59,113 bases of DNA from a virus, in IMG/VR virus record IMGVR_UViG_3300017971_000314, positions 1 to 59,113 of that record; one strand, 5' to 3'. This document shows, in pieces, positions 22,601 through 51,651 of the stretch (position 1 is the stretch's first letter; the number at the start of each line of letters is the position of its first letter). The notes below the pieces were generated by a model, which did no database searches, had not been told where the DNA came from, and was given only the letters and a program-made list of their open reading frames with translations. The translations under genes were made by a program, and so were the position numbers.

Positions 22601-24418
22601 GGACTGGACACGGATTACTCGCAGAGAATCTGGGCTTCGCACCAAGGCCCGACAGGCATCCGTCGCCAGTACGTCCGCATTCACAATCGTCATCAGGTGA
22701 CGGCGAGTGGGTATTACGCATACTACTACCTGTATCGGGGCACGTCCGGTTCAGCATACATGACTGAGTGTAAAATCTACAGGGGTGGCACCACGCTCGC
22801 CAGTGATGGCACCGACCGGAGTAACAGCAAGTATGCGGAGTTCAAGACGATAGGCTCCGGACTGCAACTGTACTGGGATGACGAGTTGGTGCTGGCTACG
22901 GAGGATGCGACCTACTCCGAAGGTGAGAGCCGTATTCAGGGTACCGTCAATGGGTGGGCAGGCTCGCTGCACCTGGACAACTACTCGCTGTCGTTCAAGT
23001 GGATTCACGAGGAGGTTGCCGAAGAGGTCGGCGTCCAGGCCATAGCGACCGTCTACACTCCTGCCGATGAGGTGGTGGAGGAGGTAGGGGTCTACGTAGA
23101 GTGCTCCGACCAGTTCACTGCTGGAGCCGGTGCATTTGAGGAGGATGTAGTCGAGGAAGTCGGTGTCGATATCATCGTCTCCGATTCTCTGGTGGCGACC
23201 GGCGCTGAGGATGTGGTCGAGGAGGTGGGGGTAGCGGTCATAGTCTCCGATACTGTTGTGGCGCCGGAGGCCGTGACTGAGGAAGTTGGTGTCGCGGTCC
23301 TCACGAGCGACACGGTAGCAGGGGTGGATGAGGCGACAGAGGAGGTCGGTGTCGCGGTCCTCGTGACATCGGTTCAGGCAGGAACAGCAGCAGCGACGGA
23401 AGAGGTCGGTGTCTACGTATTCACGGTGGACACGCTGGTAGGGACTAACTCGGAAGACCTCTTCGAGTACGTCGGCGTCCAGGTCATCGCAGCGAGCACG
23501 GCATGGATGACGCAGGACGTAGCGGAAGAGGTCGGTGTTGCTGTAGTAGGGGCCGCGAGCTTCGTTCTCACGGAGGACCGGACTGAAGAGGTCGGCGTTG
23601 CTGTACTGGTTGCGGACACGGCATACCGGTCCGAAGCGGTCACAGAGGAAGTCGGAGTCTACGTTGCAGCAAGCGACCAGCAGGCCGGGACAGCAGCAGG
23701 AACAGAGGAAGTTGGCGTCTACGTTGCTGCCTCCGATGCGTACACCGAAGTCGCGGTGGAGAACCGGACAGAGGAAGTTGGCGTTGCCGTCAGTACGACG
23801 GACACGCAGGCATCGACCGACAGCGCGACGGAAGAGGTGGGCGTTGAGGTAACGCTGACCAGCAGCTACGCGACGACGGATGCTGGTGTCGAGGAAGTCG
23901 GAGTATACGTAGCGGCGTGGGACTTCAGCGGTGTGCTGGAAGCTCGCGTCGAGGAAGTCGGAGTACAGGTACTCACCTCCGACACTCAGTATATGTCCTC
24001 CAGTGCGACAGAAGAGGCTGGAGCGTACGTTGCCACGTCTGACCAGCAGGCGATGGCGGGGAGCATCGTAGAGGAGGTCGGAGTCCAGGTCGTTGTCTGG
24101 TCGCTCCAGTATGGTACGGACGGAGCTGTTGAGGAAGTCGGCATTGATGTCCGTAGCTGGAGCAGGATGGGGGCAGAGTACCTGGAGAACCGTGTTGTTG
24201 CGGTTGGAGTGCTTGCAGTAGCGATTGATACCTCCTTCGTAGCTGAGAGCGGAGTGGAGGAGGTGGGGGTGTATGTGAGTGCGGCGTACACAAGTTATCG
24301 GCCACAGGTCGATATGGTCGATACGCTGATACTCACCGTGGACGAGAGAGACGGGGTCAGTGGAATGCCGCTGGCAGCGGACGTGGACCTGATTCTGCAC
24401 ATAGACGAGGTGGATTAA
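19679..24418 (+). CDS. Giant repeat fibre with three lectin-like domains
   Basis: A 1579-residue protein. The N-terminal 160 residues are a beta domain. Most of the rest is a tandem repeat of about 19-24 residues with core (T/V)EEVGVxVxxSD; by eye about 37 copies. Three related globular domains interrupt it, at about residues 283-500, 550-760 and 900-1110. Each begins FGWPxHxN...DDFxR or DSFDR, contains SDGLHTW or SDGLHSW and then RIHEH...GHGLD or its variant, and looks like a concanavalin/LamG-type fold. The likely role is a long adhesin fibre, stalk made of repeats and receptor-binding domains inserted. It lies among head genes, so it could decorate the capsid rather than the tail. Confidence 0.7.
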   Translation: MASEGPQSPTASAVIAGTWTNPSYVYSSGDNYAEADNNTDIMAATGYDFSGIPDGSVITGIVVSIEGYGEGNNAARRDLAVGLTKDGSTQAGDESATADLDTSDTPLIDFGAADSLWNTTWNLSDIKGNSSFGCRLRPGTQSGASYTRFVDHATITVYYEAGAQTYEDDVVEEVGSEEVVSDTQASFENRTEEVGSYEATSDTQFMSNSVTEEVGAAIIVSDSLTSVWSEDVTEEVGVYIGETDDTGAGETYEDDVVVEVGVQAVAAAWKAFSDDVVVEVGVEEPGFGWPKHWNEVIDSFDREDSSTVGTASDGLHTWDEVCDANRINIYSNTLEAVQTASYWATGTVRIHEHQSAGHGLDVDYRHGGILGTPAYDPSDTSRFDFMSRWDGNRTQNSLPDVGYTARFAYQKGAGFALINVYIYRGTTELDSVSSPGVTVTTGSDKLEFRVRGTSLTALYNGEVLLDTTDATHTEGQTGVALDKGWNTRRMTLASYFLDGVLEPQVSEVGVEVSCTDQMTPERLYVEVGVQALASDPEPTALISVGVDTPAYGWPPHWNQASDDFNRSGEPGTMSDGLHSWDEVYHGSYVSVDGSRIIFGYSASITVYGTVRIHEHVANGHGLDRSYRQGCVCYHSGTAYKTNRNRIIARDQGDGNTDTPVGYHVEVRQDRSTGDPYLTDIAIKRGGTTLSNDGSNRDCNKNCEFRVWGTKLQAFWDGELMTQTTDATYSEGCTGIGGKNGTFSGSSKADNYYLDELLEPIEMEVGVEVSVAEHGPYSENVAVEVGVEVAASDPEPTLLVEVGVYTACSDSFTEAGGAMEEDRVEEVGVYVTESETIFVDDVVLDLALEPVVEEAGVEILAASTLYASDAVTEEVGVAELAEAWRALAEDVTEEVGVHTHGFGWPPHANVCTDDFDRGDSGAVGSMSDGLHTWEEDPDGTGATDFEIDDNRLKIIAGSTTENGVIKVREHVVDGHGLDTDYSQRIWASHQGPTGIRRQYVRIHNRHQVTASGYYAYYYLYRGTSGSAYMTECKIYRGGTTLASDGTDRSNSKYAEFKTIGSGLQLYWDDELVLATEDATYSEGESRIQGTVNGWAGSLHLDNYSLSFKWIHEEVAEEVGVQAIATVYTPADEVVEEVGVYVECSDQFTAGAGAFEEDVVEEVGVDIIVSDSLVATGAEDVVEEVGVAVIVSDTVVAPEAVTEEVGVAVLTSDTVAGVDEATEEVGVAVLVTSVQAGTAAATEEVGVYVFTVDTLVGTNSEDLFEYVGVQVIAASTAWMTQDVAEEVGVAVVGAASFVLTEDRTEEVGVAVLVADTAYRSEAVTEEVGVYVAASDQQAGTAAGTEEVGVYVAASDAYTEVAVENRTEEVGVAVSTTDTQASTDSATEEVGVEVTLTSSYATTDAGVEEVGVYVAAWDFSGVLEARVEEVGVQVLTSDTQYMSSSATEEAGAYVATSDQQAMAGSIVEEVGVQVVVWSLQYGTDGAVEEVGIDVRSWSRMGAEYLENRVVAVGVLAVAIDTSFVAESGVEEVGVYVSAAYTSYRPQVDMVDTLILTVDERDGVSGMPLAADVDLILHIDEVD
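20170..24295 (+). repeat. Coding tandem repeat (EEVGV unit)
   Basis: DNA region encoding the EEVGV repeats of the fibre gene. Units are about 57-72 nt and diverged in sequence, with gaag/gagg-aggt-cgg(t/a)gt at the core of each. The last 21 units (about 23011-24290) run without interruption. Such arrays easily gain or lose units by recombination, so fibre length may vary among relatives. Confidence 0.75.
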
Positions 24419-24419
24419 G

Positions 24420-24785
24420 GTGACTGACGTTCTGGTTGTCAAAGGTACGGACAAGACCATCAGGGCATTGGTGACGGACACGAGCAGTGTTGCCATCAAC
24501 CTTACTGAGGCTCTGGTTAGGTTCATGGTGAAGAAGTCGGTCCACGATTCTGATGATGATGCCCTCATTACCAAAATCTCCTCCGTCGCTGTTCAGTGTG
24601 TTATCACCAGTCCTCTCGGAGGTTTGGTGGAGGCGTACCTTGTGCCGTCGGACACGGAGAGCATGGACGCAGGGATTTATTCGTTCGACTTTCGTGTCCA
24701 GCTAAGTAACACCAAGATTTACATCGTACCGACACCTGCCGGTACGATTGAGGTGAGGGACAGGATAACGAGAGCGTTCTCGTAA
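24420..24785 (+). CDS. BppU-like N-terminal domain protein
   Basis: A 121-residue protein, start GTG 24420, one base after the fibre stop. The pattern KGTDKTIRALVTDTSSVAIN, then LVRFMVKKS, GGLVEAYLVPSDTESMDAGI and FDFRVQ resembles the N-terminal domain of BppU/DUF2479 baseplate or adhesin proteins. It may be the adaptor that attaches the fibre to the particle. Moderate confidence. Confidence 0.5.
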   Translation: MTDVLVVKGTDKTIRALVTDTSSVAINLTEALVRFMVKKSVHDSDDDALITKISSVAVQCVITSPLGGLVEAYLVPSDTESMDAGIYSFDFRVQLSNTKIYIVPTPAGTIEVRDRITRAFS

Positions 24786-34483: not shown

Positions 34484-35459
34484 CGCATGGAAGACCTCGT
34501 GGGAGGAATACGCTGCTCGGAAGAAGGTAGACCTCAGCGACAGGAGTGACGAAGGTCGTCGCAAAGAACGTGAAGCCAAGATCGCGTGGGAGCTTTCCGT
34601 GGCGGGGGCCATGAGCAGAGGCGAGATTCCTCTGGAGTATTCGGCTTGGAATAGCTCTTGGACATTCAAATCGTGGAGCGCCGAGTCTCACAGGTATAGA
34701 GAGTTTGGATACGAGACAAGCTCCAACGGCTTCTGGGAACCTTTGAACGAAGGTTCGACTCTGTACCATGTAACGACAGCGGCTTCTTCTGTAGAGAAGG
34801 AAGGACTGAAGTCCAGAAGAGACCGAGGAGCGGAAAAGGGCGTTGGTCTTGGAGGTGGCAGCGGTTACGGTATCAGCTTCACCGGAAGTGCGGAGTGCGC
34901 AGCCACAGCTCAGAAAGCCATCAAGGAGGCTGCATCGGTAATGCGAGGAGATGTATCCTTTGCGGAACTGAGGAAAGCGGCAGAACAAGGAAAGGGAGCG
35001 GACGAGCCGTGGGACAAACGATGGATAACCTGGATCGCCAACGAAGGCCTGACACTCGACAAGATTCAGAAGGGCATCGTCAGAGAATACGAGAGCGGAA
35101 AGGGGATTGTTGAAAGGAAAGGAACGCCGAGTGAGGTCGCGAGCTTCAAGGTTCGAGCGTTCTCTCGGTGGTTGCAGTACAGATACGAGGCAGGAGGGCC
35201 GTTCGATCCGTATATCGTCGATATAGATGGGAGGGCTTTGGCGAAGGTGCGCGATAGTGACATTGCTGTTCTCGAGTACACGCCGAAGCCGGGAACGTTT
35301 GCGAGGCATACTGCGAAAGGAGTTGGAGCGCTTGACGAGTGGGTAGTGTATGACATGAGTACATTGGAGTCGAAGGGCAGAAGCAGGACCGTCTCTGAGA
35401 GGCAGCCGAGGTTTCCTCAAATGAGGCATAAGTACTCAAACCCCTGGAAGGTTGATTGA
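34374..35459 (+). CDS. Tagged ADP-ribosyltransferase-like protein
   Basis: A 361-residue protein; ATG 34374 is supported by the tag LTKKQLAFLFATVY (6-19). Residues 128-170 look like the start of an ADP-ribosyltransferase fold: STLYHVTTA (His132), KEGLKSR, a Gly-rich GVGLGGGSGYGISFT. A later ALDEWVVYD strand could supply the catalytic Glu (H-Y/S-E type). Probable reaction: NAD-dependent modification of a host protein or nucleic acid. No basic tail is present (ends NPWKVD). Confidence 0.55.
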   Translation: MPGRKLTKKQLAFLFATVYAKKGGKGQRRRKGLADPDAWKTSWEEYAARKKVDLSDRSDEGRRKEREAKIAWELSVAGAMSRGEIPLEYSAWNSSWTFKSWSAESHRYREFGYETSSNGFWEPLNEGSTLYHVTTAASSVEKEGLKSRRDRGAEKGVGLGGGSGYGISFTGSAECAATAQKAIKEAASVMRGDVSFAELRKAAEQGKGADEPWDKRWITWIANEGLTLDKIQKGIVREYESGKGIVERKGTPSEVASFKVRAFSRWLQYRYEAGGPFDPYIVDIDGRALAKVRDSDIAVLEYTPKPGTFARHTAKGVGALDEWVVYDMSTLESKGRSRTVSERQPRFPQMRHKYSNPWKVD

Positions 35460-35478
35460 AGACGAGGAGAGCGCGGTA

Positions 35479-38400
35479 ATGGTAACGATTGAACGAGCAA
35501 TGCCGAAAAAGAAGAAAGGTCCGTTGAGCAACCTGCTCATCGCATTCTACACGGAGGGCCTTCCTTTCAACGGCGAGACCATGATGAAGGAGTCGCTCGG
35601 TGGCAGCGAAACGGCTCTAACATCCGTCGCCAAGGAGCTGGTGAAGCGCGGTCATGATGTGAAGGTGTTCTGCAAGTGTGGCAGCAAAGGCGAGGGGACA
35701 TTCGACGGTGTCGACTACGTCGACTGCTCGAAGTTCCGTCAGGTCAGTATGATGTTCGAGTGGGACGCCTTGATCGTCTCACGATTTGCTCAGGCTCTCG
35801 GCAGCAGGACGAAGGCGAAGCTCAATATCCTGTGGTGTCATGACATCCTGGTAGAGCGGTCGACGTTTGCGGGGATGCTGTGGCAGACGGAGGACGTCTG
35901 GCTTCTGAGCCAGTACCATAAGAACCAGTACCTGGAACAGTTCGATGACGGGGTGGAGAGAGAAGCATTCGACAAGCTCTCACACCTGACCACGAACGGC
36001 GTAGACCTGGAATTGGTGGACGGGGCCAGATTGTCCACAGAACCGCACAGTGACCACGGCAATGGCGTTAGTGAGGAGGAAGGAGCGTCCACCGCGCTTC
36101 GTTCCAACCGACTTATCTACACCAGCCGCCCTGAGAGGGGCCTATTGGTCTTGCTGCGAGACATCTGGCCTCGTCTGCTTCAGTTCGATCCGGACCTGGA
36201 ATTGGCGGTCTGCTGGTACGACTACCAGAACATGCCGTTGCCGGAGGACGTGAAGGGCATCCACCAGATGTGCGATGTGCTTATCCAGCAGTCGCCAAAC
36301 GTGACGAAGCTCGGCTCCTTGTCGAAGCCGGACTTGTACCGCGAAATGCAGAAGGCGGACTTGTGGTTGTATCCGACGGCATTTCCGGAAATCAGCTGCA
36401 TAGGGGCATTGGAGGCGATGGCATGCGGTCTGGTGCCGATTACCACGGCGGACTTCGCTTTGAACGAGACTGTCGGCGAAGGATGCGGCGTCCTCATCGA
36501 GGGAGACCACGAGAGCATCGAGTATCAGGACGAATTCGTGTTCCAGACCAGCAGGCTCCTCCTGGATGAGGACGAACGCGAGCGGATGGCTCGGCGAGGT
36601 CGTTTGTACGTCGAAGAGCACTACCAGTGGAGTCAGGTGGCCGAACAGTGGGAGCAACGCATCCAGCATTTGTTCACGGAGCGGATGGAGCAGAACAAGC
36701 CGCAGGTGCTGGAGAGCCTCTTCCGCTACGCCGACGTCATGGCCGCGAAGGAGTTTGCGACAAGGCACGGCTTGGAAGAAGGAGTCGAGAGGGCCAACAA
36801 GATTCTCGAGTCCGCAGAGAAGCCGGAAGAGGAGCCAGGAGACTTGGTAAACCTCGATCCGGAGAACCATACGTGGGGCCTGACCGAACGATTCCAGCGG
36901 TGCCTGAAAATCATCGTGGAGAAGGAGCCTAAGACCTTCCTGGACATCGGATGTCACTGCGGCACGATGACTGTAGCCGTAAGTAATGCGGCTCCGGAGT
37001 GCAAGGTGACAGGGATGGACTTCACACAGGCTTACATCGACTGGTGCGCTGTTCACCTGAGCAAGGTCGGTCTGTATCCGGAGAACGTGGAGTTCACGCT
37101 AAATCGGCTGGAAAATTTGGTCGAGGAGGAGGGCCAAGAGCACAAGTATGACGTCATCTTCGCCGGTGAATGGTTGGAGCATGTGGTCGATACCGCAGGA
37201 GCGCTGAGGCGAATCCAGCGGCTCTGCAAGGTCGGCGGTACGGTTGTCCTGACGCTGCCGAACGGACCGTGGGCACACTTCGATCTGAGTAAGTACGTTT
37301 ACAATAACGGAGGTCATGTCCACTACTTTGACATGCAGGACATCCAGGACTTGTTCGGGATGCAACCGGACCTGACCGTGGAGTTCCAACAGGACCATGT
37401 GACTCCGAAAGGCGACCTCGTCGGCAACTGGATTATCAGCTGGACGAACAACGGGAAGCCGTGCGGCCTTCCGGATTACGACCGGAAGTTCCTCATGCAG
37501 GTGCCGTACCAGTCGCTGAGTTGCTGCATGATTGCCAAGAACGAAGCGGAGAACATGTTGAGGTGCCTGCGGTCGGTGAGAGGGATTGCCGACGAAATCA
37601 TCGTCTGCGACACCGGCAGCTTCGATGGCACGCAGGCTATTGCGGCATCGATGGGAGCCAAGGTGTTCCAGATTCCGTGGAATGACTCGTTCGGTGATGC
37701 GAGGAACAGGAGCATCGAAGAGGCGGAGGGTGATTGGATACTGTGGATCGATGCGGACGAGGTTTTGCTTTGGCCGGACCGGTTGAAGAAATACCTGCGA
37801 AGCAAGATGTTCCACGGGTTTGTCATTCGGCAGAATCACCTGACGCTCGACATGCCAGACGTGAAGCCGGACCGTCCATGCCGTGTGTTCAGGAATCACC
37901 GAGGCTACAAGTTCACTGGCCACATCCACGAGCACATCGAGGATGTAAATAGGGGACCGTTTGACCAGCCTGTGCGTCCTGCTGTGGTGTTGCCGGATGT
38001 GGATATCGCACACTTTGGTTACATCACGGAGGACATGAGGCGAGGGAAGTGCTCGGAGCGGAACCTCCGGTTGTTGTTGAGAGACCGAGCCGAGCATCCG
38101 GAGCGGCGTCTGACGCTTGTGCTGCTCCAGCGTGACTACATCAACATCACGAACTGGGAGTTGCAGAAGAACGGATTCAAACCTACGGAGCGGATAGCTC
38201 AGTGGTTGCTCATGATTGGACGGATTCACAGGGAGAATTTCACCGACCGTCAAGATGTGTACCACGAGCTAAGCTACACGCTGTATCAGCAGTCGTTGAG
38301 CATTCTTGGAAGGTTGGGTGTGTGCCTGCCTGAAACTGGCATGCCTCCGTTCGAGGTTGCTCTTGGTCTTGGTGGTTCAGTTGCAGGATTTGAGAGCGAG

Positions 38401-38562
38401 TTGGTCAATCCGGACCGGCGCTGGTACTCGACCAGGGAGGAATTCCTGGAGTTCATGGAATACAAAGGTTTGCAACTGGTGGACGGAATGGGAGTCAAAG
38501 AGTGCCGCGAGGCCGAATCCGAGGATGCAGAGGAGCCGTTAAGTGCTCAGGCTTCTGAATGA
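35479..38562 (+). CDS. Trimodular glycosyltransferase-methyltransferase-glycosyltransferase
   Basis: A 1027-residue protein; ATG 35479 is chosen (GAGGAG upstream) over TTG 35452. Domain 1 (about 14-405): GT4-type glycosyltransferase with LGGSETALTSVAKELVKRGH and a donor-site PEISCIGALEAMACG. Domain 2 (about 450-640): Rossmann methyltransferase, FLDIGCHCGTMT and a GGTVVLTLPNG strand. Domain 3 (about 680-860): GT2-type, LSCCMIAKNEAENMLRCLRS, DTGSFDGT and DADE (metal site). A helical C-terminal region follows. All active-site motifs look intact. Position between head and tail genes suggests it modifies virion proteins or a host glycan rather than DNA; substrate unknown. Confidence 0.82.
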   Translation: MVTIERAMPKKKKGPLSNLLIAFYTEGLPFNGETMMKESLGGSETALTSVAKELVKRGHDVKVFCKCGSKGEGTFDGVDYVDCSKFRQVSMMFEWDALIVSRFAQALGSRTKAKLNILWCHDILVERSTFAGMLWQTEDVWLLSQYHKNQYLEQFDDGVEREAFDKLSHLTTNGVDLELVDGARLSTEPHSDHGNGVSEEEGASTALRSNRLIYTSRPERGLLVLLRDIWPRLLQFDPDLELAVCWYDYQNMPLPEDVKGIHQMCDVLIQQSPNVTKLGSLSKPDLYREMQKADLWLYPTAFPEISCIGALEAMACGLVPITTADFALNETVGEGCGVLIEGDHESIEYQDEFVFQTSRLLLDEDERERMARRGRLYVEEHYQWSQVAEQWEQRIQHLFTERMEQNKPQVLESLFRYADVMAAKEFATRHGLEEGVERANKILESAEKPEEEPGDLVNLDPENHTWGLTERFQRCLKIIVEKEPKTFLDIGCHCGTMTVAVSNAAPECKVTGMDFTQAYIDWCAVHLSKVGLYPENVEFTLNRLENLVEEEGQEHKYDVIFAGEWLEHVVDTAGALRRIQRLCKVGGTVVLTLPNGPWAHFDLSKYVYNNGGHVHYFDMQDIQDLFGMQPDLTVEFQQDHVTPKGDLVGNWIISWTNNGKPCGLPDYDRKFLMQVPYQSLSCCMIAKNEAENMLRCLRSVRGIADEIIVCDTGSFDGTQAIAASMGAKVFQIPWNDSFGDARNRSIEEAEGDWILWIDADEVLLWPDRLKKYLRSKMFHGFVIRQNHLTLDMPDVKPDRPCRVFRNHRGYKFTGHIHEHIEDVNRGPFDQPVRPAVVLPDVDIAHFGYITEDMRRGKCSERNLRLLLRDRAEHPERRLTLVLLQRDYINITNWELQKNGFKPTERIAQWLLMIGRIHRENFTDRQDVYHELSYTLYQQSLSILGRLGVCLPETGMPPFEVALGLGGSVAGFESELVNPDRRWYSTREEFLEFMEYKGLQLVDGMGVKECREAESEDAEEPLSAQASE

Positions 38563-40730: not shown

Positions 40731-43700
40731 ATGACGGTTAATGTCGGTGGTATCCTCTTTGATATTCAGGCTGAGTTACGAGACGCTCTTCAGGGCATCG
40801 ACGTATTGGTGACCAAGCTTGGCGCCATAGAGGATGCGGCCAAAAAGACTAAGGACGAAGTCGAGAACCTTGGTAGCTCCACGACGATGTTGGAGAGGAC
40901 TGTTGGAGCGCTGGCGTTCGCTCTTGGAGGCCTCGGCCTGGGATCGCTGGCCAAATTCTCTGCTGAATACGCTGCCAGAGTGGAGACGCTTGGCATCGTT
41001 CTGGAGAATGTCGGCAAGAACGCAGGCTATTCGCAAGAGCAAATCCACTCTCTGGAAAACGGGATCAAGTCTCTCGGTATCACGACCGAGGTTGCTCGAA
41101 CGTCGATGGCTCAAATGATTCAAGCCGAGCTTGACCTCACGAAGGCCGTTGAGCTGGCGAGAGGGGCACAGGACGCTGCGGTTATTTCTGGCATGGATTC
41201 ATCGGCGACCTTCGAGCGGTTGCAGTACGCCATCTCGAATCTGGATACGATGTCGTTGCGGTACATGGGCGTTCTTGTGAGTCTGGCGCAGGCTGAGGAG
41301 AAGTACGCAGCGGCGAACAACAAGACAGTGAAGAGCCTGACTATCCGTGAGCGCCAGGAAGCATTGATGGCGGAGGTGCTCCGGAAGCTCACACTGTTGC
41401 AGGGAACGTACGAGTCCGCGATGGAGACTGCTGGTAAGCAAATGACCTCGATGGTTCGTTTGTGGAACGAAGCGTACAACGAGTTGGGCAAGCAGTTCCA
41501 GCCTATCTTGCGTGCTCACATCAAGCTCATCTCTGACTTGCTGAAGATATACGCTGAGACAACTGATACCACCAAGATTCTGACAGCCGCTACGGTGGCC
41601 TTCGGGGCGGCTCTTCTTTCGCTCATTGGCGTGGCGAAGACATTGACCGTGGTGCTCGGAGCATTAGGGGTATCGATGAAACTTCTTGGTGCTGCAACGC
41701 CTGCACTGACAGCTCTGACCTTGGTTATTGCCGGTCTTGCAGCTGCCTATGTAGCTTTGAGCGCGGCCCAGGAAAAGGCGGCTGTCCGTTACAAAGAGTT
41801 GGAGCTTGATGCTCGAACATCGGCTTATGAGGCGAAACAACTGTCGAAGTTGACGGAAGAATTCGAAGCTCTGGCCCGGAAACAGGATCGAACCTCTGAA
41901 GAGCAAGATCGGTACAACGAGCTTATCGGTAAGCTCGCGGCTCTCGAACCAAGACTGCTTAAGATTCTGAAGGATAAGAACCTGGCTCTTGAGGATCAGT
42001 TGCGGTTGCTTCAGGGCATTACTGGTGAGAAGGAGCGGCAGGCACAACTTGATGCTGAGGAGGCGGACGAGGCGAGGGTGGAAAGGCTGGTCAGTCTTCA
42101 GAACGAGAGAGAGCGGATTCGGAGTACACTCGAAGGTACAGGAACGACTGGAGTCTACAAAGGCCGTGGCGCTCTCAACTTCATGTCCTGGAGGGAGGTC
42201 ACCGGAGGAGCTGCTTTTCCGATGGAGTTGGAGGAGTTTCTCGCAAAAGCAAGAGAGCTAAACGTAGAGCCTACCCGAAGTGCGAGGACTCGGTACAATG
42301 ACTTGATAGAGAGGTGGCGGAGCGTACAGGCCGAGATCGACAGCATCATAGGAGACGTAACCTCAGAAGAGGATCGGCTCAGGCAGGTCCGCGAAACCGA
42401 GCTTCAGGATTACATCGCCAGGGTCCGCATCGAAGGCCGTGAGATTATCGAAGAGATGGCTCGCATCAAGAAGGACAAGCTCGACCTGCTTCGCCTGGAG
42501 TTGAAAGAACGCCTCGACGCGATGGACAGCGAGTTCAACGAGATGAGGCAGAAAGAGGGGTGGATGGATGCCGAGCTTGAGGAGCTAACTCGGAAGCACG
42601 AAGAGCGAAAGCAAACCATGCGGGAGCTGTACGGTAAGAGGGAAATCGAGCTTATCGATTCCATCAACCGCGAAGTCCGCGACCGTATCATGGAGGTCAC
42701 CAAGGAGAAGCTGGCTCTCTACCGCGAGGACTTAACAGCTCAAGATAACGCATTAGATGAAGCGAAGCGCATTTGGGACGAGTGGCAGCGGATGACGGAG
42801 AACATCCAGTCGTTCCTGCGGAGAGAGCAGCTTAGCCTCATAGGAGAGGACCAGCCTGGACGAGCGGGCGTGATGAGGCAGTTTGACATCTACGCCGAAG
42901 CTCTGAAGGATTACGCTCGGACCGTGGAGGACGTGAATGACGTCCTCGCCATGTTCCAGCAAACGCAGGACGCAGCCCTGAAGAGCAGCCAGCGGCGCGT
43001 TGTAGACCTCCAGCGTGACATGAAGGATTTGGAGTACGACTGGCGGCAGGTCCGGAAGAACATGCCGGAGCAGTATAACGAGCGTTGGAGGCGAATAGCC
43101 GAAGATGAGACCCTGTCGGCGAAAGAGCGGTATGAGCTTCAGCGCGATCTCGTTATAGAGTTTCGGCGTGAGCGCGACGAGCGTGTCAGGAGTTACCGAG
43201 AGACGAAACAGCATCTGGAGGACCAGATAGCCGACGAGCAGGCCGCCCAGGAGGAGATGGCTCGGACGGCTACGCAGATGTTTGAGTTGACGCAGCAGCG
43301 TGCCAGGGAGCTTGCTGAGCAACAGCTTGTAGACAATCAAGCTGTTGAGGAGAGCCTTCTCCAGCATGTCACGCTTGAGCAGGAAAAGCTTGAGATACTG
43401 AAAGCAGAGTCCGCAGAACTCGATGAGCAGGGCAGGCTGTACTCGCAACTCCTTACCATTATCCAGAGCACCGAAGTTGCTTTGGCAGCAGCGAAAGGAG
43501 CGGAGGGAGCGTTCGATGTCGGAGCTGTCGGTCCGGCAGCCGTGTTCCTCGAAGCAGCAAGTCTGGCTCAGTCTGCTTTTATCGACACGCTCCAATCTCG
43601 TTTGACGAAAGGTCAGGAGTTAATGGCCAAGCTGGTCGGGAACACGACAGACATGATGGCTATGTTCGTCGGTGACATCGACGTGAGGATCGAGATGGTG

Positions 43701-43787
43701 GAAGCAGGCCTGGCTCGGTTGGAGGCCATCGAAAGCGCACGTGCTCGCCGGACCTCTGGTAAGAAGGCGGCGCAGGGAGTATCGTAA
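40731..43787 (+). CDS. Tail tape measure protein
   Basis: A 1018-residue protein, start ATG 40731. It follows the chaperones. An N-terminal coiled coil leads into hydrophobic segments near 55-75 (ALAFALGGLGLGSLAKFSAE) and 280-350 (TLTVVLGALGVSMKLLG; ALTLVIAGLAAAYVALSAAQ), then about 550 residues of long charged helices. At about 1.5 angstroms per residue this predicts a tail near 150 nm. The hydrophobic segments probably enter the host membrane during ejection. Confidence 0.88.
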   Translation: MTVNVGGILFDIQAELRDALQGIDVLVTKLGAIEDAAKKTKDEVENLGSSTTMLERTVGALAFALGGLGLGSLAKFSAEYAARVETLGIVLENVGKNAGYSQEQIHSLENGIKSLGITTEVARTSMAQMIQAELDLTKAVELARGAQDAAVISGMDSSATFERLQYAISNLDTMSLRYMGVLVSLAQAEEKYAAANNKTVKSLTIRERQEALMAEVLRKLTLLQGTYESAMETAGKQMTSMVRLWNEAYNELGKQFQPILRAHIKLISDLLKIYAETTDTTKILTAATVAFGAALLSLIGVAKTLTVVLGALGVSMKLLGAATPALTALTLVIAGLAAAYVALSAAQEKAAVRYKELELDARTSAYEAKQLSKLTEEFEALARKQDRTSEEQDRYNELIGKLAALEPRLLKILKDKNLALEDQLRLLQGITGEKERQAQLDAEEADEARVERLVSLQNERERIRSTLEGTGTTGVYKGRGALNFMSWREVTGGAAFPMELEEFLAKARELNVEPTRSARTRYNDLIERWRSVQAEIDSIIGDVTSEEDRLRQVRETELQDYIARVRIEGREIIEEMARIKKDKLDLLRLELKERLDAMDSEFNEMRQKEGWMDAELEELTRKHEERKQTMRELYGKREIELIDSINREVRDRIMEVTKEKLALYREDLTAQDNALDEAKRIWDEWQRMTENIQSFLRREQLSLIGEDQPGRAGVMRQFDIYAEALKDYARTVEDVNDVLAMFQQTQDAALKSSQRRVVDLQRDMKDLEYDWRQVRKNMPEQYNERWRRIAEDETLSAKERYELQRDLVIEFRRERDERVRSYRETKQHLEDQIADEQAAQEEMARTATQMFELTQQRARELAEQQLVDNQAVEESLLQHVTLEQEKLEILKAESAELDEQGRLYSQLLTIIQSTEVALAAAKGAEGAFDVGAVGPAAVFLEAASLAQSAFIDTLQSRLTKGQELMAKLVGNTTDMMAMFVGDIDVRIEMVEAGLARLEAIESARARRTSGKKAAQGVS

Positions 43788-44236
43788 TGACAGAGCCTGA
43801 TTCTTATGAAGGCGATCTGTATGCGTGGTACAAGGAGCAGTGGCTCGGCGATAGAGTTCTGTCCTTGAGATCGTATCCGGAGAGCTTAACGAGCACAGAG
43901 GAGCCGTTGCTGTGGGCTCCGTTTCCTCTTGTGACGCGCAACTCTCCGAACATCGTCTGGCGGGTAACGTTGAAGGTGTGGAAGGCATCGTTGGCTCCGG
44001 TCAACCTGCTTGGAGCCATCGATAGCTACTACGGACTGTTCTTCGCGGGCAAAAGCTCTTTGATTGTTTGCTATTCGGAGGTAAGCACCAATGTAGCACG
44101 GCGGTATCCATACACGATGCTGAAGAACATCAATCCGGGAGCGTACGACGACGTAAGTAGAAACTACTTTGACGACGCTCTGACCTTCGAGTTTACATCG
44201 GTCGGCACGCCGACGACCGTGTGGGGAACGGTGTAG
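43787..44236 (+). CDS. Tail tip/distal tail protein candidate
   Basis: A 149-residue protein, start ATG 43787 overlapping the tape measure stop (TAATG). Beta-rich and aromatic (EEPLLWAPFPLVTRNSPNIV; WRVTLKVWKAS). Its place right after the tape measure suggests a distal tail or tail tip component. No specific family is recognised. Confidence 0.55.
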   Translation: MTEPDSYEGDLYAWYKEQWLGDRVLSLRSYPESLTSTEEPLLWAPFPLVTRNSPNIVWRVTLKVWKASLAPVNLLGAIDSYYGLFFAGKSSLIVCYSEVSTNVARRYPYTMLKNINPGAYDDVSRNYFDDALTFEFTSVGTPTTVWGTV

Positions 44237-44239
44237 AGC

Positions 44240-46945
44240 ATGACTGACGCGTCTACCATAATCGCTTTGTGTGTAGCCACGACTCCGGTTGATCTGAGGG
44301 CAAATCAGGTCGAGTTGGAGGAGTTGAACGTCTCGTACGACCGCTATCGGACGCTCAGCTTCCTCCAGCGGGTGACGCATACGAATCCATCGTACTACAA
44401 CCAGCAGGCTGTGCGGCTGGACATGTACGGGAAAGTTCGGTTTCGTGGCAAGATTAAGACGGTCGAACATGTTGGCTCTCCTGAGAGTGAGCTTGTCCGG
44501 TACGTGGCTTACGGGGCGAGAGAGCAGGCTGCCGAGGTCAACGTCCTGGATGATAATGGCTCGCCGCGAGTGGTGTTCAACGCGCCGTATGAGGATGAGG
44601 AATTCGCCTTCGCTCGGCAAAACTGGAGCGTAGGGCAGATGATCCAGTGGTTGTTCGAGCAGCACCGAACCGAGTTGAACAGCAAAGGCGTCATCGACAC
44701 GGCCAGCGCAACGCTGTCGAATTCATACGGGTATGCTCCGGTCGAAGTCTCTTCGATGAGTTGGAAACCGGATAAGGTCGTGCTGTCGGCCATGACGTTC
44801 GATCAAGCTCTGACTAACCTGATGAAGATATCTCCTGGCTATGCATACATCTATGACCCTCACAACCAGATCTTCCGCTTCCGCAAGGTCAACTCGCTTT
44901 CAACCACGGTCATCACGTACAACAACTCCATCGACGTGGTGAAGAACGTCTCCTTGAACCCCGACACGACCGACCGCTATACAGCTATGCGCATCGTCGG
45001 AGCAAAGCAGCCGAAGTCGCTGTCCATCTTTGAGAGCACCGGTGACCTGACACGGCTGTGGGATTCGAGCCTTGAGGCGACCTGGAGTCTTCCGAAGGCC
45101 TGGGGAGGAGCGCACACAGGCTCTGGTACGATAACCACAGGTACGGCAAGCATGGTGGTGGATTCGTCTCAGACCTGGGCGGTCAATAAGTGGAAGGATG
45201 GTCTGCTGACCATCGTGTCGACCGGCACCTTCTCGAACGTCAAGAGCTACCGCATCATCACGAGAAGCACCACGACCGGAGTGTACATCGAACCTAACTG
45301 GATGGTAGTGCCGCAGGCTGGGGCGGCGTACAAGATAAGCTCGGCGGTATCGCCATACCGGTATGTTTATAGTAGGTGGCAGGTCACATCGCCTGCGTAC
45401 AGGCACATCGCCAAGGAGATGACGTACGGAGGGAGTTGGATACTCGGTGGACTGGTGTACGAGATAGCCAGGACCAGAGGACCGCGCCTGTGGAGAAAGG
45501 TCATAGGCAGTGTGGGATCGAACACACTCAGTACATGGATGCCGGTGCCTGCGGACTTCTTCTGGCGGTCCGGCGTCATGCTGTCTCGGCTTCCAGTGTG
45601 GCAGGGAACCAAGCTGAGCACCTTCACGCCAGGAACGTCGTCTCCTGCGGTTGACGTGCGTCTCGATTATGCGTACTTGTCCGATCCGACGTCGGTGAGG
45701 TATCCGACCAGCGGCTTCACAGGGACGGCGTACGGCACCTTCGGCATCGAGCGCGAGCTGGTAATCTACGATGAGGAGTTTCAGGACGAGACGCAGGTGG
45801 ACCGGTACATGGAGATGGCTACCAACCTGCTCGATGCGTACAAGGACGTATTGTATGACGGCCACGTACAGCAGGCTCAGAAATTCAACGTGGCATTCAG
45901 CAACCTCGGTCTGCGAGTGAACATCGCGGCTCAGACGGGAGCAGGCAGTCCTATCACGACCGGCTTCGAGAACATCGGAGCTATGGTGACGGAGGCCTCA
46001 TACAACTTCCAGGGCCACTCCACCAAGCTGACGCTCACGACGGGACTCGAGTTCACGTTCGATGAGGTCAAGCGGATGTTCTCGGATGAGACGAAGGTGC
46101 AGTGGCGGCGAGGTCTGCGATTGGATGATGCGAGCGTGTTCCCTCCGGACCTGCAAGTCTGCTCCGATACGTGTGGCGAGACCAGCCCTCCATGCGAGAA
46201 TCCTCCATGCGGTGAGGACCACCTTTGCGGCTCAGGACATCCGTGCTCTTCGGAGCATGTCTGCGGCGATGAGGTGACGCCGTGCGTGGAGGGGGATAAC
46301 ATGACGCCTGATCCTCCGGACGATGGCAGCGACGAAGTCTGTGGTGACGAGCAGGTGTGTCCGATGGGTCAGGTGTGCGACGAAGACCACATTTGCGGTC
46401 CTGGCATGCTGCCGTGCGACAGTCAGGCTCCTCCTTGTGACGGCGAAACGCCGACGTGCGATGGACAAACACCGCAACCTCCGGGTCCGATTTGTCCGAC
46501 GGAAGGTGGTTGTGGAGCCGTGGAGAATGCTCCTGACTATTCATGGTTTGAGCATGAGTGCTGTAACTATGCTCCGTACTCGTTCTCCTTCACAGGGACA
46601 GGCTACACAAACGTGGTCAGCGAGGACTGCACCGACTGGAACTTCAGCGATTACCTGGAATGGGATCCGGTAGACCAGCGGTGGGAGTACAGCGACCCGG
46701 ACAGAACCATCACGCTGACCTGCGCAATCTACTCGGAAGAAAGCCAACCGTGCGACGGCAAAACGTATTGGCAGCTCCAGCTAAGCTCTGTGGCATGTAG
46801 CTGCTTGTACACGTCGTGGGAGGATGGATGCGGTGGAGCAGACAACTGCGAGAACGACTTCTGTGATGGCGGCGTGTTCGATTCGGATTGCTGTAGCAGC
46901 GGTCCGGACTGTCTGGCCGGGTCATTCACCATTACTCCGGTGTGA
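44240..46945 (+). CDS. Tail hub/tip protein with Cys-rich C-terminal domain
   Basis: A 901-residue protein starting at ATG 44240. Residues 1-600 look like a tail hub (gp27/tail-associated type): beta-rich, with WSVGQMIQWLFEQHRTELNS and FDEVKRMFSDETKVQWRR near 605-622. From residue 641 the protein changes to a Cys-rich region with about 30 Cys to residue 893, often at six-residue spacing (CGEDHLCGSGHPCSSEHVCG), rich in Pro, Asp and Gly. Such Cys density is rare in phage tails. It may be a disulfide-locked or modified receptor-binding tip. The radical SAM maturase at 48255 is a candidate modifier. Confidence 0.7.
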   Translation: MTDASTIIALCVATTPVDLRANQVELEELNVSYDRYRTLSFLQRVTHTNPSYYNQQAVRLDMYGKVRFRGKIKTVEHVGSPESELVRYVAYGAREQAAEVNVLDDNGSPRVVFNAPYEDEEFAFARQNWSVGQMIQWLFEQHRTELNSKGVIDTASATLSNSYGYAPVEVSSMSWKPDKVVLSAMTFDQALTNLMKISPGYAYIYDPHNQIFRFRKVNSLSTTVITYNNSIDVVKNVSLNPDTTDRYTAMRIVGAKQPKSLSIFESTGDLTRLWDSSLEATWSLPKAWGGAHTGSGTITTGTASMVVDSSQTWAVNKWKDGLLTIVSTGTFSNVKSYRIITRSTTTGVYIEPNWMVVPQAGAAYKISSAVSPYRYVYSRWQVTSPAYRHIAKEMTYGGSWILGGLVYEIARTRGPRLWRKVIGSVGSNTLSTWMPVPADFFWRSGVMLSRLPVWQGTKLSTFTPGTSSPAVDVRLDYAYLSDPTSVRYPTSGFTGTAYGTFGIERELVIYDEEFQDETQVDRYMEMATNLLDAYKDVLYDGHVQQAQKFNVAFSNLGLRVNIAAQTGAGSPITTGFENIGAMVTEASYNFQGHSTKLTLTTGLEFTFDEVKRMFSDETKVQWRRGLRLDDASVFPPDLQVCSDTCGETSPPCENPPCGEDHLCGSGHPCSSEHVCGDEVTPCVEGDNMTPDPPDDGSDEVCGDEQVCPMGQVCDEDHICGPGMLPCDSQAPPCDGETPTCDGQTPQPPGPICPTEGGCGAVENAPDYSWFEHECCNYAPYSFSFTGTGYTNVVSEDCTDWNFSDYLEWDPVDQRWEYSDPDRTITLTCAIYSEESQPCDGKTYWQLQLSSVACSCLYTSWEDGCGGADNCENDFCDGGVFDSDCCSSGPDCLAGSFTITPV

Positions 46946-47472
46946 GTATGATTGAATGCGAGTACCTGTACGACGGACGGTGCGAGTTGACCGGTGGCTT
47001 CATGTCAGAGGACAACTGCCGGTTCTGTACGAACGACAAGACAGGGATTTTCCGAGCGAAGCTGAAAGCTCACAAGGCCAAGATGGACCTGAAGAAGCGA
47101 AAGGAGGAAGGCACAGAGACGTACGAGTGTCCGGGGTTGGTGCTGGAGGTTGACGCTCTGTTCTGCGAGGAGTGCCTGCGGAATCCGTACCTGCGTCAAC
47201 GCATGGCTCAAAGCCGGATACGCCGAGTGCGGCTGCTTCCGTGCAAGCATAGAGGAGAGGAGGTGGGAACAAGAGAGGTTACGTGCTGCGGAGGCAAGGT
47301 GAAGGAGTTTCCTACGGTCGCGTGCGACCTACGAGATGAGCCTCCGATTGTGGTGAGGGATTGTGTGAAGTGCAATGACTTTGAGCCGGTAGAGGAGCTT
47401 GACCAGGATGAAGATTGGTGTCGTTTTCGCTCAAGCAGCAGGGAAGGTGACAACAGGTTGGTACGTCGCTGA
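46942..47472 (+). CDS. Cys-rich protein of the modification cluster
   Basis: A 176-residue protein, start GTG 46942 (4-nt overlap) or ATG 46948. About 14 Cys in several clusters: CEYLYDGRCELTGG, CRFC, CEEC, then CCGGKVKEFPTVACDLRD and CVKCNDFEP. The CCGG...C...CxxC pattern occurs, from memory, in small proteins near phage and bacterial glycosyltransferases. It may bind Fe-S or zinc, or be a substrate. It overlaps the glycosyltransferase start. Confidence 0.55.
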   Translation: MSMIECEYLYDGRCELTGGFMSEDNCRFCTNDKTGIFRAKLKAHKAKMDLKKRKEEGTETYECPGLVLEVDALFCEECLRNPYLRQRMAQSRIRRVRLLPCKHRGEEVGTREVTCCGGKVKEFPTVACDLRDEPPIVVRDCVKCNDFEPVEELDQDEDWCRFRSSSREGDNRLVRR

Positions 47473-48286
47473 GGCTCTGCAAGGACTTGGCCACAACGTC
47501 GTACCGTTGGACATTCACCAAGAGATCGAACCTCCGCTCGACCTTGTCATCAAGGTTGACGATACGTTTCCCCTCCAGGAGCAGCACGCATCACTGAAGA
47601 ACTTTCCGAACCGGGTGTTCTGGATGCTGGATAGTCACACCGGCATGCAGAGGTGTCTGGCCATAGCACGACTCTTTCCGATAGTGGTCTGTGCTCAGAA
47701 AGAGGCTTTGCCAACTGTCGCGAGGAACGTCAGGGCACGGTTGTTGTGGTTGCCTTACGCAGCATCCGAGAGTATCGGCAGAGACGATGGTGTCGAACGC
47801 GACATCGACATCGCATTCGTCGGTAGGCTCTCGCCGCCTCGAGTGGCAGCGCTGGACCTGCTTGGGAGGTACTTCCGAGTAGCCGCCGACGACTCCGGCA
47901 ATCCGTCTGTCATTCCGACGATGTACTCACGGAGCAAGATGGTTGTCAACTTCCCCCTTGCCAGCGACCTGAACATGCGTGTGTTTGAGGCGATGGCGTG
48001 CGGAGCCTTGCTCCTTCAGCACACCGACGAACGGCTGAGGATAGACAACGGCATGGATGAGTTGATGAAGCCGGGCATCCACTATGCGGAGTTCTCTTGC
48101 TTGAAGGATGCAATCCAGAAAGCTCAATACTTCGTTGGCCACAAGAGTGCGCTCAAGGAGGTTGCCGAGCGCGGGCAGCGAGTGGTCCGAGAGCACCACA
48201 TGTATGCGGATCGTATGCAGAAGCTGCTTCAGTTTGTATCGGAAGGGGACCAGGATGCAGCAGAATCGGATGCTGTCGGCAAGTGA
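47408..48286 (+). CDS. Glycosyltransferase (GT-B, CgeB-like)
   Basis: A 292-residue protein; ATG 47408 is chosen (GAGGAGC upstream). MKIGVVFAQAAGKVTTGWYV start, DIAFVGRLSPPRVAALDLLG in the middle, then MVVNFPLASDLNMRVFEAMA and CGALLLQ at the nucleotide-sugar site. This is the CgeB/GT1-like family found in phage and spore modification loci. It lies right after the Cys-rich genes and overlaps the radical SAM gene by 32 nt, so the two are likely made together. Confidence 0.75.
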   Translation: MKIGVVFAQAAGKVTTGWYVAEALQGLGHNVVPLDIHQEIEPPLDLVIKVDDTFPLQEQHASLKNFPNRVFWMLDSHTGMQRCLAIARLFPIVVCAQKEALPTVARNVRARLLWLPYAASESIGRDDGVERDIDIAFVGRLSPPRVAALDLLGRYFRVAADDSGNPSVIPTMYSRSKMVVNFPLASDLNMRVFEAMACGALLLQHTDERLRIDNGMDELMKPGIHYAEFSCLKDAIQKAQYFVGHKSALKEVAERGQRVVREHHMYADRMQKLLQFVSEGDQDAAESDAVGK

Positions 48287-49760
48287 GGCGGAGCGCGTAG
48301 ACACTAACTTCTCGTGGCTTGTGCCGTGCCGCCCGCAGGTCCACCTGTTCCGGTATCTCGGGAAGTGCTTCGCGTACGACGCTAACTCCAGAGTTAGCTT
48401 CGAAGTGACCGACGACGTCTACGACCTCATGGTCGCGGCTCAGGAAGACATCGTTGACGAGGATTCGGCCAAACGATTCATCCTCTCCCTGCCGGTCGCC
48501 GATCCTGTGAAGCAGGATATGATGCGATGGCTGTTCTCGGCCAAGGAACCTATGGTGGCCCTGTCTTCCTTCAAGACGTACCGTGGAGGACCATCGCAGT
48601 TGCTCTTGTCCGTGACGAATGCGTGTAACCTCAATTGCGCATACTGCTTCACCCAGTTTGGCTACGAGGACCGCTGCTCCTTCATGCCGCGAGACGTGAT
48701 TGAGAAAGCGGTGCGCTTCATGGATTCGAGGTCAAAGTGGCTCAGCTTGTTCTTCTTCGGCGGGGAGCCGATGCTGAATAAGGAGGCCATCATATACGCG
48801 ACGGCGGCTGCTCTTGGTAAGGCCGAAGCGCTGAGAGCGAAGCTGAAGCCGGGGATCACGACGAACCTGACCATCCTGGAAGACGACATGGTCAAGCTTA
48901 TGAAGGAGCATCGGTTCGGCGTAATGGTAAGCCTGGATGGGGATAAGGAGATCCAGGACGCTCAACGCGATTCGACTACACTTGGCTCGACGTACGACCT
49001 CACCATCGGCAACTTGGAGAAGCTGGCTCATGGCCGAAGGACATGCCATGTGACGCTAAGAGGCACGCTGCTCGGAACAGGGTTCGATCTGGTGAAGGTG
49101 CTCAACCATCATGAATCGCTGTGCGAGCGTGGATTGGCCGATGGCATTTCGTTCTATCCGGTCGAGTCGGACGTGGAGGGAAAGTACGACTTCGGTGAAG
49201 ACCTTTCCTGGATCGACACGGAAATCGAGAAGGCCGTCAAGTGGTATCTGCGAAGAGCGGTGCGAGGCAAGCATGTGTCGTGGGGGAGGTTGAAGCGTCA
49301 CATGGCCACGACGCTATACTGCACCATCAAGACGTACTTCTGCAACGCAGGATTTCGGTACTTAAGCGTAGGGCCAAGCGGAACCATCTTTGCCTGCCAC
49401 AGGCAAGGAGCCAGCGCTATTGGCCACGTCGACTACGGTGTGGATGAGCGGCGGAGAGTGCCGTGGGTGGACGACAGAGTGTATGCCATACCGGAATGCT
49501 CACAGTGCTGGATGAGGTTTGCCTGCGGAGGTATATGTAGGGCACATTCGTTGACAAAGTACGGTAATGCGGTCACGCCGGACAGAGCGCACTGTTACAT
49601 TGCGAAGAGGCTGTTTGAGGGGGCAGTTTGGATGTTGTCGGAGGTCGGCCAGGAACGAGCGCTAAGGTTTGTGCGCCGTCCATCTCTGTCGGTGGCAGAG
49701 AGCCGGAGGAGACAGAAGAGGCAGGCTCAGCGGAATCGTAAACATGAGGGCAAAGGTTGA
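48255..49760 (+). CDS. Radical SAM/SPASM peptide maturase
   Basis: A 501-residue protein; ATG 48255 is chosen (AAGGGG upstream). An N-terminal region with a RiPP-recognition-like feel (1-110) is followed by the SAM-binding CNLNCAYC (Cys124, Cys128, Cys131), FFFGGEPMLN and VSLDGDKEIQDAQR. The C-terminal SPASM region has CNAGFRYLSVGPSGTIFACH, CSQCWMRFACGGICRAHS and a final C, enough for two auxiliary Fe-S clusters. This matches ranthipeptide/QhpD-type maturases that make thioether or similar links in peptides. Host metabolism supplies SAM and Fe-S. Probable substrates are the nearby Cys-rich proteins. Confidence 0.85.
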   Translation: MQQNRMLSASEAERVDTNFSWLVPCRPQVHLFRYLGKCFAYDANSRVSFEVTDDVYDLMVAAQEDIVDEDSAKRFILSLPVADPVKQDMMRWLFSAKEPMVALSSFKTYRGGPSQLLLSVTNACNLNCAYCFTQFGYEDRCSFMPRDVIEKAVRFMDSRSKWLSLFFFGGEPMLNKEAIIYATAAALGKAEALRAKLKPGITTNLTILEDDMVKLMKEHRFGVMVSLDGDKEIQDAQRDSTTLGSTYDLTIGNLEKLAHGRRTCHVTLRGTLLGTGFDLVKVLNHHESLCERGLADGISFYPVESDVEGKYDFGEDLSWIDTEIEKAVKWYLRRAVRGKHVSWGRLKRHMATTLYCTIKTYFCNAGFRYLSVGPSGTIFACHRQGASAIGHVDYGVDERRRVPWVDDRVYAIPECSQCWMRFACGGICRAHSLTKYGNAVTPDRAHCYIAKRLFEGAVWMLSEVGQERALRFVRRPSLSVAESRRRQKRQAQRNRKHEGKG

Positions 49761-49944
49761 GGTACTGCAAATCTGGTGCTGCGGTTCGTCAGAACCGATT
49801 GAGGTAGACGTTCCTGTTGACGGACATACGGAGTTTCGGTGTCCGCACATAGAGGGGAGGTGGTGTAAGGTTGGACTGAACGGTATGGTATGGTGCGATT
49901 ACGTGCGCAAGGTAAAGAAGAAGGTTGAGACGGAGGAAGCGTGA
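49744..49944 (+). CDS. Small Cys-containing protein
   Basis: A 66-residue protein, start ATG 49744, overlapping the maturase end by 17 nt. Strand-rich with IWCCGSSEPIEVDVPVDGHT, CPH and two later Cys; CC...CPH...C could bind zinc or be modified. It ends KKVETEEA. Its tie to the maturase makes it a second candidate substrate or partner. Confidence 0.5.
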   Translation: MRAKVEVLQIWCCGSSEPIEVDVPVDGHTEFRCPHIEGRWCKVGLNGMVWCDYVRKVKKKVETEEA

Positions 49945-50847: not shown

Positions 50848-51651
50848 ATGGCCGTACTAAATGTGTTCAAGATGTATACGTCGATTAGCGGGGAAGGAAA
50901 TACGGCTGGAGAGCCGTGCATCATTTTGCGATTGGCTGGATGCGACCGCAGGTGTAGATGGTGCGATACGAAGGAAGCCCAGAACGTTGTCGCAGGCCGG
51001 ATGTTCTCCACCAAGGATGTCGCCGATGTCATCAATCGGATGCGGCAGGGGCTGTTGCTCGTTACCGGAGGAGAGCCGCTGCTGCAAGCGGAAGCTGTGG
51101 CTGATCTGATGGAGCGGATCCCGTCGAAGAGGCTTGAGGTCGAGACGAGCCAGACAACGGCCTCCCCGTATACCTCCTGCATTCCTGACTGCATCAACGA
51201 CCAGTATCCTGATATATGCATGGACGTGAAAACTCCCTCATCCGGCGAGGTGTCCGATGTCATCGATCTCGATTTCGACCGCATCGACTCTCTGAAGTTT
51301 GTCATTGCCGACGTCGATGACTGGCTCTTTGCGAAGGAGTGGATTCGCACAAGAGCGCCGGAAGAGTTCTTTGCGGGCATCTACGTTAGTCCGGAGTGGA
51401 GCGTTCGCAAGAAGGTGCTCGAGTGGCTTGTTGGAGAGGTCATCACATCCGGCCTTCCTGTAAAGCTCAGCCTGCAATTGCACAAAGTCCTTTCTCTCCC
51501 TGAGGACCAGTTTCCTGACCTTCTGAAACTGGCCGGTATCAGGCCTCTCCTGGCTGAGGAGGTAGCATCGGCCAATTCTGCTGAATTGGAGGCACCTGCG
51601 GCGAACCCGGCGGTAAATCCGGCCAACATTGAGGACGGCGAGGACCGGTAA
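50848..51651 (+). CDS. queE: 7-carboxy-7-deazaguanine synthase (QueE)
   Basis: A 267-residue protein; ATG 50848 chosen (GGAAGGAG upstream). Radical SAM cluster motif CDRRCRWCDT (Cys32, Cys36, Cys39), preceded by YTSISGEGNTAGEPC typical of QueE, and LLVTGGEPLLQ. It converts 6-carboxytetrahydropterin to 7-carboxy-7-deazaguanine, the precursor of preQ0 and of 7-deazaguanine DNA bases. No folE, queD, queC or dpdA partner is in this window. The last 40 residues are a low-complexity Ala/Asn/Pro/Glu tail. Confidence 0.85.
   Translation: MAVLNVFKMYTSISGEGNTAGEPCIILRLAGCDRRCRWCDTKEAQNVVAGRMFSTKDVADVINRMRQGLLLVTGGEPLLQAEAVADLMERIPSKRLEVETSQTTASPYTSCIPDCINDQYPDICMDVKTPSSGEVSDVIDLDFDRIDSLKFVIADVDDWLFAKEWIRTRAPEEFFAGIYVSPEWSVRKKVLEWLVGEVITSGLPVKLSLQLHKVLSLPEDQFPDLLKLAGIRPLLAEEVASANSAELEAPAANPAVNPANIEDGEDR

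Follow-up and report, generated by a model that had tools for sequence, protein, structure and literature searches.

A radical SAM/SPASM enzyme encoded beside a cysteine-rich phage tail protein: a candidate tail-maturation cassette and its recurrence in environmental phages

QhpD/PeaB, the maturase of quinohemoprotein amine dehydrogenase, is a thioether-forming enzyme whose substrate is a real protein subunit, in which it joins Cys to Asp or Glu. PapB, the maturase of the ranthipeptide freyrasin, also joins Cys to Asp or Glu – linking Cys-Xn-Asp motifs with n from 0 to 6 – and needs a conserved Arg to do so (PMC9413430). Phages carry many radical S-adenosylmethionine (SAM) genes, known from Campylobacter phages, a T4-like marine genome and pelagimyophages, where they have been read as metabolic, Fe–S-related or DNA-protecting (PMC2853527, PMC3322345, PMC5332604, PMC7029224); those of the Campylobacter phage CP220 type were taken as metabolic or DNA-protecting (PMC2853527, PMC3322345). 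Here, we analyse an IMG/VR virus record of 59,113 bp (the window), with head genes for terminase, portal and major head protein, in which a gene for a radical SAM/SPASM enzyme lies shortly downstream of one for a 901-amino-acid (aa) protein with a Cys-rich C-terminus. The reading we favour, with a probability of about 0.62, is a tail-maturation cassette: the enzyme, equipped with a domain resembling the recognition element (RRE) of ribosomally synthesised and post-translationally modified peptide (RiPP) systems, would modify the 901-aa tail protein, most likely through thioether links from Cys to Asp or Glu.

A preliminary description, made from the sequence alone, had assigned the enzyme a CxxxCxxC motif and a full SPASM region of the ranthipeptide-maturase type, and this assignment holds. 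All motif Cys residues can be located (C124-x3-C128-x2-C131 and an exact SPASM pattern, C363-x12-G376-x4-C381 / C415-x2-C418-x5-C424-x3-C428 / C447). The ranthipeptide maturase CteB (5WGG) is matched along the full length of the enzyme both in sequence – by phmmer over residues 29–462 at 5.7e-40, and at 2e-85 by a profile of phage relatives – and in predicted fold, the top Foldseek match of an AlphaFold model built with 28 relatives (pLDDT 89) being 5WGG (E 4.6e-27, TM 0.83). In that model, residues 21–92 form three strands followed by three helices, an RRE-like arrangement. Sequence and modelled structure both assign the enzyme to the thioether/ranthipeptide maturase type. It misses the NCBIfam cut-off of every known maturase family, the best match being PapB (NF047865; 169.1 bits versus a cut-off of 340), followed by QhpD/PeaB (TIGR03906; 167.6 versus 453 bits) and SCIFF (TIGR03974; 148.6 versus 425 bits), whereas a leave-one-out model of its phage relatives, from which the window was excluded, gives it 316 bits as against 169 for PapB. 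An HR pair after the second SPASM Cys (CHR) is common to the window, most of the phage relatives, QhpD-like enzymes and the best PapB-like match (L370), while SCIFF maturases have CHQ at this position; in the tree, QhpD-like sequences branch beside the phage clade. The CHR arginine may correspond to the Arg required by PapB (Arg372). Three bacterial enzymes with window-like scores (L239, L240 and L250; 309–320 bits) were rejected as close kin because FE replaces HR in them and the tree places them with SCIFF.

The gene at 44240 for the putative substrate, a protein ending in some 30 cysteines, is likewise as described. The 901-aa protein has 31 Cys in total, of which 30 fall within the last 261 residues (641–901) and a single one within the 640 before them; against the window background of 1.5% Cys, the binomial probability of this concentration is ~1e-17. 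Residues 641–765 form an array with 17 Cys, spaced mostly by 6–7, with 21% Asp or Glu and no Lys, Arg or aromatic residue at all. Its acidic residues fall at +1 to +3 of Cys (Asp/Glu at +2 for 41% and at +3 for 41% of the Cys residues), and no regular CX3D spacing is found in it. The protein has no family match of its own in Pfam, PHROG, NCBIfam or PDB, and a single-sequence structure prediction reached a pLDDT of 33; its assignment as a tail protein, presumably a hub, follows from position only, after the tape measure and a 149-aa protein. A proposed resemblance of its C-terminal module to an L048 protein was dropped when comparison gave no match.

Single-protein scans of viral contigs with the window enzyme or the tail protein found nothing, and it took alignment-based queries to find relatives: such a scan of IMG/VR yielded 79 loci. 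We define here a phage rSAM/Cys-tail clade (rSAM standing for radical SAM). Most of the records analysed are fragments, and some of the counts are corrected for exact duplicate enzymes only. The nearest enzyme relatives adjoin tail proteins with long CExxCExxC arrays, either P2 gpI-like or hub-like and placed after the tape measure; the partners include proteins of 615 aa with 131 Cys (L016), 954 aa with 133 Cys (L027), 1304 aa with 28 Cys (L026), 2600 aa with 104 Cys (L024) and 1001 aa with 69 Cys (L028), the last downstream of a Cys-free, tape-measure-like protein of 775 aa. The largest count, up to 189 Cys, comes from one partial reading frame (L160). In L017 the partner is P2 gpI-like (PF09684, 4e-11; more weakly, 0.0044, for L048), and others are hub-like; by sequence resemblance, the Cys array is thus carried by at least two kinds of tail protein. 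Flanking DNA is available for ~17 members of the wider clade, and in 14 of these a gene whose product reaches at least 10 Cys per 60 aa lies no more than 8.5 kb away; two of the remaining three (L021 and L329) encode proteins that resemble Tail_P2_I and carry short CE-type Cys stretches, and the third (L332) has no Cys-rich gene.

The preliminary description had asked whether the gene pair recurs in other phages or whether homologous tail proteins regularly lack the maturase, and the pair recurs strongly in both search directions. In the family of L028-type hubs (A3), all 8 loci have the Cys-rich extension. A radical SAM gene is present in the fetched flank or contig in 6 of the 8, the other two ending inside the hub gene; the enzyme of one locus (L237) was found in L020. 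Among the A3-hub loci with enough flanking sequence, none is without the enzyme. Around distinct phage rSAM loci of all lineages, the share of Cys-rich genes falls from 11.6% within 1.5 kb and 8.8% at 1.5–3 kb to 2.4% (3–5 kb), 2.3% (5–7.5 kb) and 0/250 (7.5–10 kb). In bacterial genomes, giant arrays were met only at prophage-like loci of a planctomycete (L238) and of SZUA-421 (L241) and at a Kiritimatiellota locus (L243), and nearly all other bacterial enzyme relatives are without them. INPHARED matches to the window enzyme were rejected as phage kin, being mostly human-gut fragments with SCIFF genes that we judge bacterial. The INPHARED records MT835xxx–MT839xxx (L002–L010), unverified ‘Bacteriophage sp.’ fragments with SCIFF precursor and maturase genes, resemble bacterial contamination.

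For the reverse direction, IMG/VR was scanned by DNA pattern for CExxC[EQ]xxCExxCE, blind to radical SAM genes. The pattern also matches many non-coding 12-bp repeats. Ahead of the enzyme search, reading frame was used to tell long open frames from these short repeats, and the records with the repeats became a control set, whose phage type may differ. The enzyme model matched in 22 of the 27 records with real arrays and in 1 of the 50 controls, weakly (Fisher P 1.7e-13 on raw counts). With near-duplicates removed by eye, some 18 of 22 array records have the enzyme, and with the records from the enzyme-first scan left out, 13 of 18 do (P 3.5e-9). Of the misses, one record stops within the array gene, while the enzyme of another sits at its very end; in most fetched loci, enzyme genes directly adjoin the array gene.

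The recurrent pair often has a third member. A gene for a glycosyltransferase of family GT9 lies within 4 kb of the enzyme at 11 of 22 clade loci, compared with 1 of 131 other rSAM loci, and at least two clade members (L021 and L329) have rSAM–GT9 fusions. The glycosyltransferase placed between the tail and enzyme genes of the window in the preliminary description is borne out (PF13524), and glycosyltransferase partners recur in the clade.

What is observed is the set of genes, the family to which the enzyme belongs, its predicted fold, and the repeated association of enzyme, Cys-rich tail protein and glycosyltransferase; on this ground stands a mechanism whose chemistry and benefit we infer. 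Once the tail protein is synthesised, the RRE-bearing enzyme would bind it and abstract hydrogen from side chains of the Cys-rich C-terminal stretch, whereupon Cys sulfur would become bonded to carbon in a residue close by – most likely the beta or gamma carbon of Asp or Glu, as in PapB and QhpD – giving a chain of thioether rings. The glycosyltransferase would add sugar to the same tail protein, and the resulting tail tip, rigid or of unusual chemistry, would be independent of disulfides. The parts of this scheme differ in strength: that the 901-aa protein is the substrate seems quite probable; that the product is a thioether is somewhat favoured; that the partner residue is Asp or Glu is a best guess offered tentatively, because CHR is common to PapB- and QhpD-like enzymes and the arrays are rich in acidic residues; and that the modification stabilises or diversifies the tip is a possibility rather than an expectation. 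Glu or Gln directly follows Cys in 98% of cases in L016 and 76% in L028, and less regularly in other clade arrays.

The RiPP-type modification of a putative receptor-binding tip first suggested for the window is partly supported, by enzyme type, recurrence of the pair and the glycosyltransferase partnership, but the enzyme lies below all known family cut-offs, and several features of the window weigh against it. Its array shows no CExxC repeat and is less dense, at 9 Cys per 60 aa as against 12–18 in clade arrays; no homologue of the 901-aa protein is detectable in phages, PDB, the collected loci or the A3 hub family; the glycosyltransferase, between the tail and enzyme genes, is PF13524 and not GT9; the enzyme diverges first within the phage clade, by a long branch with support of 82 (not starred); and no leader or RRE-binding motif was identified. 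The claim for the clade is stronger than that for the window itself, because the window has a Cys spacing of 6–7 instead of 4, a glycosyltransferase other than GT9, a tail protein without homologue and a branch support of 82.

The Cys-rich segment could also simply hold disulfides or metal. Extracellular Cys-rich modules often fold by disulfides, and the second module of the 901-aa protein (residues 774–901) resembles a folded domain; an ordinary stabilised tail domain that needs no enzyme would, however, leave unexplained both the linked SPASM and glycosyltransferase genes and a low-complexity acidic array devoid of aromatic and basic residues, and we hold it very improbable. Less remote, if still unlikely, is that the enzyme modifies the segment by other radical chemistry – sactionine-type alpha-carbon links, epimerisation, C–C cyclophanes or links to non-acidic partners – possibly jointly with glycosylation of Cys or Ser/Thr. 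The SPASM superfamily does all of these, NCBIfam matches include cyclophane and sactipeptide maturases, and the fused or adjacent glycosyltransferase genes would suit joint glycosylation, but the full-length matches that score best form Cys thioethers (CteB, PapB and QhpD), and the putative substrates are extremely Cys-rich. Between these two in probability, and improbable in our view, is an enzyme that acts elsewhere, on a small Cys peptide, a host protein or in metabolism, its place beside the tail gene of the window being incidental. Earlier papers treated phage radical SAM genes as metabolic or Fe–S-related (PMC2853527, PMC5332604), two small Cys proteins are encoded nearby and the window tail protein is without the CE repeat; against this stand an association that is strong in both directions and spans unrelated phages as well as different tail types, and the absence of repeats from the small Cys proteins. 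A metabolic role, as an auxiliary metabolic gene, is given less weight.

Within the window, the genes from 40731 follow one another on the + strand in the order tape measure, 149-aa protein, 901-aa protein, 174-aa Cys protein, glycosyltransferase, radical SAM/SPASM enzyme, 66-aa Cys protein and a 130-aa protein (Table 1; the gene caller used was a simple one). From the 901-aa gene onward, successive genes overlap (GTGTGAGTATGA at 46942; 32 nucleotides between the glycosyltransferase and enzyme genes), and because they overlap end to end, these genes probably form one transcription unit. Two further Cys-rich genes were said to flank the enzyme gene, and they are there, with 14 Cys in 174 aa and 5 Cys in 66 aa; by sequence, they look like ordinary CxxC-type small proteins without repeats and not like repeat substrates. 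Just upstream of the tail genes, 35452–38562 encodes a 1036-aa GT1–methyltransferase–GT2 protein with a relative in L121. A second, shorter radical SAM protein (Fer4_12/Radical_SAM) is encoded at 50848–51648 and is QueE-like in its length and its position beside a helicase.

Table 1. Features of the tail and enzyme gene run, in positions of the window
Feature	Position	Strand	Basis
Tape-measure protein, 1018 aa, 0 Cys	40731..43787	+	PHROG_28 tail length tape measure 1.6e-4; NF047706 phage tail 4.4e-8
149-aa protein, distal-tail position (between tape measure and hub)	43787..44236	+	position only, without family match
901-aa tail protein, hub/tip position, putative substrate	44240..46945	+	open reading frame; after tape measure
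Acidic Cys array, residues 641–765, putative modified segment	46160..46534	+	composition, Cys spacing
Second Cys-containing C-terminal module, residues 774–901, 13 Cys	46559..46942	+	
174-aa protein, 14 Cys in CxxC-type clusters	46948..47472	+	without family match
Glycosyltransferase, PF13524 Glyco_trans_1_2	47408..48286	+	E 3.7e-19, 69.5 bits versus cut-off 25
Radical SAM/SPASM enzyme, 501 aa	48255..49760	+	PF04055 9.7e-14; CteB 5WGG 5.7e-40; AlphaFold and Foldseek
RRE-like N-terminal domain, residues 21–92	48315..48530	+	predicted structure; aligns with CteB N-terminus
CxxxCxxC radical SAM cluster motif, C124/C128/C131	48624..48647	+	conserved in alignments A2 and A4
SPASM domain cysteines C363–C447, CHR at 381–383	49341..49595	+	
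66-aa protein, 5 Cys, overlaps enzyme gene end	49744..49944	+	

Comparable pairs occur outside the clade. In the cultured phage CP220, gp140 (L321:30133-31737; PHROG_26958) has 35 Cys in CDCNYCTC repeats and is encoded beside a tail-fibre attachment catalyst, a few genes from the radical SAM protein gp136 (L321:33943-35112); IBB_35 has a hypothetical gene of the same length as gp140 (8498–10102), which a tail-fibre attachment catalyst and a radical SAM gene accompany as in CP220, the likeness being one of length and position. Several side observations concern other repeat types. CP220 has two further small proteins with CxxC repeats and 27 Cys each (L318, at 24206–24577 of CP220, and L321, at 138106–138531). 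Genes for proteins of ~190 aa in L042, L047, L056 and L073 end in C-terminal CTCTCTCTC runs, beside or overlapping a radical SAM gene of another lineage. CNCNYCTC arrays lie near radical SAM genes in L079 (5265–6305), L080, L083, L084, L086 and L089–L091, several followed by SDERLK or SDEQLK, which may resemble the S74-type chaperone start of tail fibres. In L214, L220 and L225, two or three consecutive radical SAM genes follow one Cys-array protein, which suggests stepwise or multi-enzyme maturation, and in L299 and L311 (Clostridiales/Bacillota) small genes with 17–39 Cys stand directly beside a radical SAM gene. It is, in our estimate, evenly balanced whether several phage lineages took up RiPP-type radical SAM/SPASM maturases independently of one another, in many cases along with glycosyltransferases, so that the Cys arrays of their tail hubs, baseplate proteins and fibres become thioether-stapled and glycosylated. 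Such recruitment would amount to a general and undescribed class of virion post-translational modification, with a structural protein in the place of the ‘precursor peptide’.

The pairing of enzyme and Cys-rich tail protein across many unrelated environmental phages suggests an undescribed way of chemically finishing tails. Among the open-licence papers searched, none was found that ties phage radical SAM genes to Cys-rich tail proteins, and a prior description elsewhere is possible. If the proposal is right, phages cross-link their own tail proteins by radical chemistry, and this would account for the radical SAM genes, hitherto read as metabolic, of many phage genomes. RiPP maturases would be widened from peptides to giant structural proteins, and a wealth of new cross-linking enzymes with long repeats as substrates would become available. 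The proposal also predicts a non-reducible, possibly glycosylated tail surface, with a bearing on adsorption and stability.

Compared with the systems described so far, the window enzyme stands closest in architecture to CteB/ScfB (SCIFF, ranthipeptide class; 5WGG), with which its RRE-like domain, radical SAM barrel and SPASM region align end to end. It falls below the cut-off of that family, has CHR in place of CHQ and has as neighbours proteins of 901, 174 and 66 aa, whereas CteB/ScfB has a short precursor peptide gene alongside (~46–48 aa in L003–L005). With QhpD/PeaB it has CHR in common, but the substrate of that enzyme is unrelated and not from a phage, and no amine dehydrogenase gene is found among the annotated window proteins. 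PapB differs in having a short precursor and strict CX3D spacing, both missing from the window; the best PapB-like match, L370, nonetheless has CHR as the window does, and the candidate window substrate has Cys with nearby acidic residues, as PapB requires (PMC9413430). The phage radical SAM proteins of PHROG_1802 and CP220 gp136 differ from the window clade in radical SAM lineage and, to judge from gp140, in repeat type, yet there too a SPASM-type enzyme lies near a Cys-repeat protein, and with cultured phages that have such an analogous pair, the general claim is directly testable.

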